Shown: positions 3,696 through 6,609 of the stretch, one piece after another
How the letters are laid out: every line of letters starts with the position of its first letter
How positions within the stretch are numbered: position 1 is the first letter of the stretch
Assembly (NCBI RefSeq): GCF_023264855.1
Contig: NZ_JAHFUW010000019.1
Location: forward strand, 1 to 64,000
DNA length: 64,000 nt
Reading direction: 5' to 3'
DNA from: Herbiconiux sp.
GTDB taxonomy: Bacteria; Actinomycetota; Actinomycetes; Actinomycetales; Microbacteriaceae
Made by a program: the position numbers and the translations under genes
Notes under the pieces: model-generated
Told to the model about the DNA's origin: nothing
The model's database searches: none
Seen by the model: the letters and a program-made list of their open reading frames with translations, nothing else

Positions 3696-3816
3696 GGATC
3701 GATGATACCCAGCGCGGTCTGTCCGGTTACGGGTTGCGGCAGGTGGATGCGCGGCGTCGGCGGTCGGGCGTACGCTTCGAGCGACGGCATCAGGCCGCCG
3801 GTGAGAGGAGATCAGG

Positions 3817-4074
3817 ATGGCAATCGACGACGACGACATCACGACCGACGCAGCTGCGGGCGGCGAGGGAACCGCCGACGGCGGAGCGAACCCGGGCGGC
3901 CACGACGGCGGGGCCGACGGCTCGGCGGCGGGCGGCGAAGGCCCGGCCGACGGTGGTGCGAACCCCGACGGGCACGACGGCGGCGCCGACGGCTCGGCCG
4001 ACGAGGGAGAGGGCACCGCTGACGGCGGCGCGAACCCCGGCGGCCACGACGGCGGGGCCGACGGCTCGGCGTGA
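3817..4074 (+). CDS. 85-aa repeat peptide: 13-aa acidic leader plus three 24-aa Gly/Asp/His repeats
   Basis: ATG with GAGGAG-like RBS; repeats end ...ADGGANP(G/D)GHDGGADGSA; synonymous differences between copies; GTGA overlap with downstream JmjC gene. Confidence 0.8.
   Translation: MAIDDDDITTDAAAGGEGTADGGANPGGHDGGADGSAAGGEGPADGGANPDGHDGGADGSADEGEGTADGGANPGGHDGGADGSA
3856..4071 (+). repeat. 3 x 72-bp in-frame tandem repeat
   Basis: Units 3856-3927, 3928-3999, 4000-4071; Asn25/49/73 and His29/53/77 at exact 24-aa spacing. Confidence 0.9.
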
Positions 4075-5435
4075 CGAACGGTCTCGAGCGCGGGTCGGAT
4101 GACCGGCCCGCGCTCTCCCGCTGCATCTCGGTCGCTCCGGAGGAGTTCGACCGTGCGTTCTGGGGGCGGGCGCCCCTGCTGTCCCGGGCGGAGACGCTTC
4201 CGGAGGGGTTCCGCGACCTGCTCACCGAGGAGGCGGTCGACGAGCTCGTGAGCGAGCGCGGACTGCGCACCCCGTTCATCCGGATGGCCCACGAAGGGTC
4301 GGTGCTCTCCCCCGCCTCGTACACCGCGCCGGGCGGGTTCGGGGCCGAGGTGGGCGACCAGGTCAGCTCCGAGAAGGTGCTCGCCGAGTTCGCCGGCGGG
4401 GCCACGATCGTGCTGCAGGGGCTGCATCGCACCTGGCCGCCGCTGATCGACTTCACCCGGCATCTGGTCGACGACCTCGGGCACCCGATCCAGGTGAACG
4501 CGTACATCACCCCCGCGTCCTCGCGCGGTTTCGATCCGCACTACGACGTGCACGACGTGTTCGTGCTGCAGATCGCGGGCGAGAAGCACTGGCGCATCCA
4601 CGCGCCGGTGCACCCGGATCCGCTCCGCGACCAGCCCTGGAGCGACCACCGCGCCGCCGTGGCCGAGGCCGCCAGGCACGAGCCCGTGATCGACGCGGTC
4701 TTCCGGCCCGGTGACGCGCTGTATCTGCCACGCGGGTGGATCCACTCGGCCGAAGCGCTCGGCGGCACCAGCGTGCACCTCACCATCGGCGTGGCCGCTT
4801 ACACGCGCGCCGACGTGGTGCAGGCGCTGATCGGCTCGCTCGGCGACGTCGCCGCGCTGCGCTCGTCGTTGCCGGCCGGCCTCGACTTCTCCGACCCCGA
4901 GGCGCTGCGCCCCGTGGTCGACGAGACGCTCGCCGCGCTGCAGCAGGCCTTCGCCGCCATGGCGAGTGCCACTCCTTCGCCGAGCGCTCCGGATGCTGCG
5001 CCGGCTCCGGGTGCGGCACCTGCCTCAGCTGCGGCACCCGCTTCAGCTGCGGCACCCGCTTCAGACGCGGCACCCGCCTCAGATGCGGCCCTCACCGTCT
5101 CGAAGCGTCTCGCCTCGCGCTTCGCTTCCGCCACCCGCCCCGAGCCGGTGTCGCCCCTCGCCACCGTCGACCTCATCGCAGCGCTCGACGCAGGCTCGCG
5201 GGTGCGCTGGCGCGGCTCGCTGCATGCCGCCGTCGATCTCTTCCCCGAGGGCGAGACCGTGCGCATCCGTACCTCGTCGAAGACCGTGTCGCTGCCGGCC
5301 GAGGCCGAAGCCGCCGTGCGCCGGCTGCACGCCGGCGGTGCTCTCTCGGTCGCGGAGCTCCCGGAGCTCGACGCGGCCAGTGCACTCGTCGTCACCCGCC
5401 GCCTCCTCCGCGAGGGCATCCTGGTCCCCGCCTGA
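4071..5435 (+). CDS. JmjC / cupin_4 domain oxygenase (ribosomal-oxygenase-like)
   Basis: HYDVHDVFVLQIAGEKHWRIH and LYLPRGWIHSAE (2-His-1-carboxylate cupin motifs); GTG start overlapping upstream stop. Confidence 0.88.
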   Translation: MTNGLERGSDDRPALSRCISVAPEEFDRAFWGRAPLLSRAETLPEGFRDLLTEEAVDELVSERGLRTPFIRMAHEGSVLSPASYTAPGGFGAEVGDQVSSEKVLAEFAGGATIVLQGLHRTWPPLIDFTRHLVDDLGHPIQVNAYITPASSRGFDPHYDVHDVFVLQIAGEKHWRIHAPVHPDPLRDQPWSDHRAAVAEAARHEPVIDAVFRPGDALYLPRGWIHSAEALGGTSVHLTIGVAAYTRADVVQALIGSLGDVAALRSSLPAGLDFSDPEALRPVVDETLAALQQAFAAMASATPSPSAPDAAPAPGAAPASAAAPASAAAPASDAAPASDAALTVSKRLASRFASATRPEPVSPLATVDLIAALDAGSRVRWRGSLHAAVDLFPEGETVRIRTSSKTVSLPAEAEAAVRRLHAGGALSVAELPELDAASALVVTRRLLREGILVPA

Positions 5436-5632
5436 TGCACCGGCACCCCCACCGCAACCCGCACCCGCACGCACACCCGCACGCCCACCTCAACCCGCAC
5501 TCGTACTCTCACCTCAACCCGGTGTGCATCCAAAACGACGGAGTTCTTGCCCGACACGCCGCCGCACAGTGGCTCCGCTGCAGCGCGGTGAGTAGAAAAT
5601 CCGTCGCTTTGGATGGCGGCAGGCCCGCATGA
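5435..5632 (+). CDS. His-rich 65-aa mini-ORF (putative)
   Basis: MHRHPHRNPHPHAHPHAHLNPHSYSHLNPV...; start overlaps JmjC stop (TGATG), stop overlaps next start (ATGA). Confidence 0.4.
   Translation: MHRHPHRNPHPHAHPHAHLNPHSYSHLNPVCIQNDGVLARHAAAQWLRCSAVSRKSVALDGGRPA
5527..5615. repeat. imperfect inverted repeat, CATCCAAAnCGACGGAnTTnT arms
   Basis: CATCCAAAACGACGGAGTTCT ... AGAAAATCCGTCGCTTTGGATG. Confidence 0.75.
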
Positions 5633-6609
5633 GCGACGCACGGTTGGAGTGGCGGCCGTGCAGCGACCGGTCGCGCGAGCGCGACGATCCGCTGGCCGCC
5701 ACCGGAGGGCGCGGGTTGCAGTGGTTCCTGGTCGAGAACGAGGGCGCGTGGGGAACGCGCGCCTTTCTCGACCCGCCCTTCGATGTGGAGCTGGGGCGAG
5801 CCCTGGTGACCCGCATCGAGAGCGCCGGCATGCGCCCGCTCGCCATCCGCCGCACAGGCCGCCATCCGGAGCGCATCGACCGCAGCACACCGCAGCGGTG
5901 GCGCTGGGCCTTCGTCGACAGCCGGCCCGGGCACGAGACCGTGCGCTGGGGCGAGGTCGACGAGCCGCACCAGCTGCTCGACGTTCCGCTGGACGGCTCG
6001 GCGGGCGTCGCATCCGATCGGCCCGTCTTCGCCGTCTGCGCCCACGCCCGGCACGATCAGTGCTGCGCCGTTCGCGGGCGACAGGTCGTGGCGCGCCTGG
6101 CCGAGGCCTTTCCCGAGGAGACCTGGGAGTGCTCGCACCTCGGCGGCGATCGCTTCGCCGGCACGATGATCCTCTTCCCGCACGGGCTCTACTACGGGCG
6201 GGTCGACGACGACGATGCCGCCCGCATCGCCGCGAGCTACCGGGCCGGGCGCGTCGAGGAACGCTTCTACCGCGGGCGCAGCTCGCTCACGCATCCGGTG
6301 CAGGCAGCACAGCACTACGCGCGCCTCGAGTTCGGCGACGACCGCGTCGAGGCCTACGCCCCGCTCGGCGAGGAGTGGCACGACGGCGGCGACGGCCACG
6401 CCCGCTGGACGGTGACCCTGGCCGACCTGGCCGATCCGGCCGACCTGGCGGATCCGGCCGCTCCGGCCGATCCCGGCGAGACCGCCCGCCCCGCCCGCAC
6501 CATCACCGTCGAGCTCGCCGAGGCCCACTCCGACCCCCTGCTCTCCACCTGCGCCGCCACCCGCCCCGGCCGCGTGCGCCAGTGGAACCTCGTCACCCTC
6601 TCCCGCTGA
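5629..6609 (+). CDS. sucrase/ferredoxin-like family protein
   Basis: VFAVCAHARHDQCCAVRGRQVVARLAE...WECSHLGGDRFAGTMILFPHGLYYGRV. Confidence 0.88.
   Translation: MSDARLEWRPCSDRSRERDDPLAATGGRGLQWFLVENEGAWGTRAFLDPPFDVELGRALVTRIESAGMRPLAIRRTGRHPERIDRSTPQRWRWAFVDSRPGHETVRWGEVDEPHQLLDVPLDGSAGVASDRPVFAVCAHARHDQCCAVRGRQVVARLAEAFPEETWECSHLGGDRFAGTMILFPHGLYYGRVDDDDAARIAASYRAGRVEERFYRGRSSLTHPVQAAQHYARLEFGDDRVEAYAPLGEEWHDGGDGHARWTVTLADLADPADLADPAAPADPGETARPARTITVELAEAHSDPLLSTCAATRPGRVRQWNLVTLSR

Follow-up and report, generated by a model that had tools for sequence, protein, structure and literature searches.

A DGG-repeat peptide encoded with a JmjC oxygenase in actinobacteria: a probable RiPP-like hydroxylation substrate

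Introduction

Why should a JmjC oxygenase, a member of a family best known as ribosomal oxygenases (PF08007), be encoded together with a small peptide made of Asp- and Gly-rich repeats? The question is raised by a three-gene locus on the forward strand of the window, that is, the whole stretch of 64,000 nucleotides analyzed here. The locus comprises an ORF for an 85-residue repeat peptide (positions 3817 to 4074), a gene for a JmjC_2/cupin_4 Fe(II)/2-oxoglutarate (2OG) oxygenase of 454 residues (4071 to 5435), and a gene for a Suc_Fer-like (PF06999) protein of 326 residues (5629 to 6609). Two PF08007 enzymes, NO66 and MINA53, are histidyl hydroxylases of ribosomal proteins, and NO66 is not a RiPP enzyme. 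RiPP systems commonly, although not universally, have a leader-binding RRE domain, and a protease and/or exporter is present in most of their clusters but not in all. Judging from comparative sequence analysis, we favor the view that the peptide is probably a multi-core RiPP-like substrate dedicated to the adjacent JmjC enzyme, which would β-hydroxylate it, most likely on Asp.

Results

The repeat peptide is a conserved protein. The peptide gene is preceded by a Shine-Dalgarno-like sequence, GAGAGGAG (3803 to 3810), which is a good match located 5′ of the ATG codon. Translation and comparison with the family define an acidic leader, MAIDDDDITTDAA (3817 to 3855), and, together with a repeat search, the core units AGGEGTADGGANPGGHDGGADGSA (3856 to 3927) and AGGEGPADGGANPDGHDGGADGSA (3928 to 3999); sequence, translation, and repeat search define the third unit with the stop codon, DEGEGTADGGANPGGHDGGADGSA (4000 to 4074). 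A preliminary description of this DNA spoke of three exact 24-residue units, which is correct for their length; the units differ at a few positions, as the pattern given in that description itself indicates. At the DNA level, three copies recur at a spacing of 72 nt with 77 to 80% identity, measured over the 98-nt reported repeat. The overlap of the peptide stop codon with the JmjC start codon was confirmed, with TGA at 4072 to 4074 sharing bases with GTG at 4071 to 4073. The nearest relatives of the peptide are from Herbiconiux, the genus of the source, while searches of Pfam, NCBIfam, and PDB sequences with the peptides retrieved no relative.

An orthologue encoding an identical peptide (L001) differs from the window by 14 synonymous and no nonsynonymous codons, and the remaining Herbiconiux orthologues differ by 14 to 18 synonymous and 1 to 4 nonsynonymous codons, in line with the earlier proposal that selection acts on the peptide. 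Among 279 units from 92 peptides, the consensus is EG[PTV]ADGG[AST][NT]Px[GQ]HDGGADG[ST]A, in which E1, G2, D5, G6, G7, and the DGGADG stretch are invariant and several further columns are more than 95% conserved. Three units are present in 79 of the 92 peptides, and most of the others have two or four. The leader consensus is M-x-[IL]-[ND]-D-D-D-[IM]-T-T. Thus, as in RiPP precursors, a constant leader (MALDDDDITT) is followed by core repeats that vary in number and sequence. Because conservation acts at the protein level, a chance ORF in GC-rich DNA is ruled out; by sequence comparison, the repeat peptide is a real protein under strong purifying selection.

Peptide and oxygenase genes are consistently paired. 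A collection scan yielded 189 peptide relatives among the candidates, and the best 80 of these 189 were retained. In all 80 loci, a JmjC gene lies directly downstream on the same strand. These loci range from Microbacteriaceae to Mycobacterium and Micromonospora, and their JmjC proteins share 43 to 84% identity. Gaps between the two genes of up to about 150 to 200 nt are tolerated, and a GTGA or ATGA stop-start overlap was seen in only 19 of the 67 loci examined. We also compared the positions of peptide and PF08007 matches in an even sample of the class (395 genomes). PF08007 is present in 145 of these genomes, and in every one of the 28 peptide-positive genomes a PF08007 match lies no more than about 1 kb from the peptide. 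A modifying-enzyme gene beside a precursor gene, as expected of a RiPP system, is therefore found in 80/80 loci and 28/28 genomes. The preliminary description had named the lack of a conserved repeat ORF beside homologous oxygenases as evidence against a dedicated pair; the ORF is kept there. Since the pairing recurs across many actinobacteria, it strongly suggests that the peptide is a dedicated substrate of the adjacent JmjC oxygenase. No recurrent protease, exporter, or other maturation gene was found at the type I loci, as we call those with this kind of peptide, and this counts against the RiPP-like reading.

JmjC loci chosen without regard to the peptide encode further Asp-rich precursors. 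From the enzyme side, we sampled 60 PF08007 loci irrespective of any peptide, and 59 of them were usable. Most have a short, same-strand, Asp-rich ORF directly upstream, often with a clear ribosome-binding site. With a threshold of at least 14% Asp, which was set after the peptides had been seen, such an upstream ORF accompanies 40 of 59 JmjC genes and 24 of 414 control genes (Fisher P = 5e-27). Five kinds of precursor recur upstream of PF08007 genes, at least four of them in addition to type I. Type I combines a MALDDDDITT-like leader (or MSExx...EGPADGGA) with DGGADGG repeats; the second type has an ...LVVAVEDI..RSR leader followed by PSDGGGTGRSDTNDG; the third is represented by IEVEVEDLAEVTSRD and DSDGTDGSSDFI; the fourth joins DLIVAVETL..IQDRFD to HSDSDGSDG; and the fifth is DPDP-rich and includes a locus on a Streptomyces clavuligerus plasmid. 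When precursor types are mapped onto a maximum-likelihood tree built quickly from 76 JmjC proteins, 11 changes are required, against a minimum of 9 and a mean of 32 after shuffling. Precursor type thus follows JmjC phylogeny, which, with the constant adjacency, supports the earlier claim of a dedicated peptide-oxygenase pair.

Several of these loci have features of their own. The S. clavuligerus plasmid locus (L215, 4772 to 8119) is a compact RiPP-like cluster of a 48-residue Asp/Pro-rich hypothetical peptide ending in ADNDPSDPPIAIADPDPFDPVI, a cupin (JmjC) protein, and an S9 peptidase, and an ABC transporter is encoded close by. L180 has a Cys-containing relative of its precursor (...ICDPDPSDDCWIVCNPNYCY). 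JmjC loci with a short precursor of the form ...PSDGGGTGRSDTNDG or ...GGRSDxND (L156 to L160, L164, L168, L175, L177, L184, and L188) look like a separate RiPP-like cluster family, in which an aldo/keto reductase (PF00248, L188) or an APH-like phosphotransferase (PF01636, L160) is encoded downstream. Candidate precursors of 35 to 37 residues, such as MDPIEVEVEDLAEVTSRDITAGGDSDGTDGSSDFI, lie upstream of a third JmjC clade (L204, L208, and L209).

It is unlikely, in our estimation, that the peptide is instead a protein partner of the JmjC enzyme (an iron-loading metallochaperone, a pseudo-substrate inhibitor, or an oxygen- or iron-sensing regulator) and that the real target is another protein. 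Such a role would be in keeping with type I operons devoid of a protease or exporter, with the translational coupling in Herbiconiux, and with the capacity that an Asp/His-rich peptide could have to bind Fe(II). However, repeat number and sequence vary widely while the Asp-rich character is constant, a pattern more readily expected of substrate repeats than of a partner with a single site, and at the related locus L215 a peptidase and an ABC transporter adjoin the precursor.

The oxygenase has an intact catalytic site and a ribosomal oxygenase fold. Both enzyme-side gene calls of the preliminary description held: the JmjC protein matches PF08007 with an E value of 4.7e-29 (100.9 bits; cutoff, 22), and the Suc_Fer-like protein matches PF06999 with an E value of 2.9e-17 (63.8 bits; cutoff, 34.9). 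Alignment of type I homologues places the Fe ligands at H157-x-D159 (4539 to 4547) and H225 (4743 to 4745) and a conserved Lys at position 172 (4584 to 4586); all four residues are invariant in 112 of 112 type I JmjC copies. An AlphaFold2 model of the protein (pLDDT, 90.8) displays the JmjC, helical, and C-terminal winged-helix architecture of ROX-type enzymes. NO66 is its best Foldseek match (E value, 6e-25; TM score, about 0.6), followed by MINA53 and YcfD, and the same three proteins are the nearest solved relatives by sequence search. All share with the window's enzyme the JmjC_2 domain, the HxD...H Fe site, the Lys, and the C-terminal winged helix, at about 20% identity. They act on ribosomal protein L8, L27A, or L16, whereas the gene context of the window's enzyme ties it genetically to a small repeat peptide.

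The winged-helix domain (residues 345 to 454; 5103 to 5432) was delimited by the structure model and fold search. Modeled alone (110 residues; pLDDT, 90.0), it matches MINA53 and NO66 first and then RiPP proteins that carry an RRE, namely, ThcOx, a heterocyclase (4v1t), PqqD (TM score, 0.61 when normalized to the target), TbiB1, and McbBCD. Sequence-profile searches of the domain gave no RRE match, so the resemblance to RRE is one of fold only, and it is not diagnostic because the ribosomal-protein enzymes NO66 and MINA53 have the same domain.

Could the enzyme, then, be an ordinary ribosomal oxygenase of the YcfD/NO66 type, with the short ORF serving as a leader, attenuator, or translational-coupling ORF whose product has no function? 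The kinship with NO66, MINA53, and YcfD, the GTGA overlap, and the absence of any second PF08007 gene from the genome would suit such an arrangement. We nevertheless consider it very unlikely, as the ORF changes synonymously and keeps its amino acid sequence, the overlap is confined to a minority of loci and sizeable gaps are tolerated (see above), and the type of ORF covaries with the enzyme clade.

Asp rather than His is common to the precursors. The preliminary description drew attention to the one His and one NP motif of each unit, but neither is supported as the defining target. His is indeed retained in 273 of 279 units from close relatives, but this does not extend to the whole type: among 26 type I loci picked by JmjC alone, 14 have HDGG and 12 lack it, having QDGG, SDGG, or pure ADGG repeats instead (L196 has nothing but consecutive ADGG units). 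The residue before DGG in the loci so picked is A in 229 instances, H in 27, G in 15, S in 14, and Q in 10. The other precursor types (SDTND, DSDGTDG, and DPDP) likewise have Asp in common and not His. By sequence, the shared feature of the type I precursors is the Asp of DGG, and because no reactive side chain other than that of Asp is found in every type, β-hydroxylation would most likely be on Asp, which is our best guess. The same enzyme-substrate pair with hydroxylation on His or Asn, the Asp/Gly-rich remainder acting as a scaffold, appears quite unlikely to us. The conserved His of close relatives and the histidyl hydroxylase activity of the nearest solved enzymes would fit it; the 12 loci in which DGG follows Q, S, G, or A in place of His, and the Asp-based peptides of the other types, speak against it.

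The Suc_Fer-like protein is accessory. Its conserved residues are C11, C137, H142, C145, C146, H170, D174, and C308; C137, C145, C146, H170, and D174 are invariant (81/81 for C137, C145, C146, and H170), and C11 and C308 are nearly so. The protein resembles Suc_Fer-like/Apd1-type proteins in its Pfam match and its cluster of conserved Cys and His residues. Apd1 has a two-His arrangement, in contrast to the invariant H170...D174 seen here. A PF06999 protein follows JmjC in 80 of 111 type I loci, at a median gap of about 50 nt, and is absent in the other 31, including those of Micromonosporaceae and some of Rhodococcoides. The family is also common in general, occurring in 215 of 395 genomes, among them genomes without the peptide. 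The Fe-S protein proposed earlier as redox partner is therefore not required, and an obligatory partnership is ruled out; the protein is accessory to the peptide-JmjC pair. A Suc_Fer-like gene is also found on the opposite strand, 1 to 3 kb from type IV JmjC genes, in L211, L212, and L213, hinting that the association of the two families extends past the type I operon.

The gap between the JmjC and Suc_Fer-like genes contains a REPIN/MITE-like palindrome (5527 to 5615) formed by CATCCAAAxCGACGGA and an inverted copy, the starts of which are 73 bp apart. The genome has 19 matches to it at up to one mismatch, versus none for a reversed control. A 66-residue His-rich ORF (5435 to 5632) fills the gap exactly, with TGATG and ATGA overlaps. 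It was considered as a further peptide and rejected, being unconserved in other Herbiconiux and overlapping the dispersed palindromic repeat; it is probably fortuitous.

Discussion

In the mechanism that we propose, the acidic leader (x-x-DDDITT) would be held by the JmjC protein, plausibly through its RRE-like winged-helix domain, while the Fe(II)/2OG center would β-hydroxylate core side chains, with Asp in the DGG motifs as the most likely site. Where a Suc_Fer [2Fe-2S]-type protein is present, it may assist. The product would be an Asp/Gly-rich peptide with many hydroxy-Asp residues and, more speculatively, a metal-binding polyanion. From the pairing of the genes, the co-inheritance of peptide type and enzyme clade, the purifying selection, the intact catalytic residues, and the fold, all of which are observed, we infer that the peptide is the substrate, that Asp is the target, and that the roles in leader binding and metal binding apply.

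JmjC/cupin enzymes that hydroxylate Orn in biphenomycin-type RiPP precursors have been described (BipG and PbsQ; PMC12707348, PMC12257519). By these descriptions, they resemble the proposed system in combining a JmjC-type Fe/2OG hydroxylase with a RiPP precursor in one cluster. They differ in their Orn target, single short core, and many-enzyme cluster, whereas the window's system has an Asp-rich multi-repeat core and one or two partner genes. PMC12710340 reports fish and algal proteins in which an RRE-like domain is fused to a PF08007 JmjC domain and for which no precursor peptide was found, and it places the closest bacterial homologues of these fusions in RiPP-like contexts. The window's enzyme shares with them a JmjC protein bearing an RRE-like domain; the passages on these fusions do not describe DGG-repeat peptides. 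Literature searches for the repeat strings, for PF08007 with RiPP, and for JmjC with precursor peptide, in a body of work that excludes most subscription journals, returned no description of such a family. A RiPP-like precursor with an Fe/2OG hydroxylase is thus a known combination, and the DGG-repeat peptide family is apparently undescribed.

A wider proposition, on which we are evenly divided, is that actinobacterial PF08007 JmjC proteins are peptide-tailoring aspartyl hydroxylases with clade-specific Asp-rich precursors (DGG repeats, SDGGGTGRSDTNDG, DSDGTDGSSDFI, HSDSDGSDG, and ADNDPSDPP...DPDP). They would then constitute a previously unrecognized RiPP superfamily, in which type I products would be poly-β-hydroxyaspartyl repeat peptides. 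In the actinobacteria sampled, PF08007 proteins (present in 145 of 395 genomes) appear instead to be linked with small Asp-rich peptides, and a large set of orphan oxygenases thereby gains a directly testable substrate. If the proposal is true, repeat peptides rich in hydroxy-aspartate would represent a new type of ribosomal polymer with a metal-binding or structural role, one that would extend to relatives of Mycobacterium, Micromonospora, and Salinispora.
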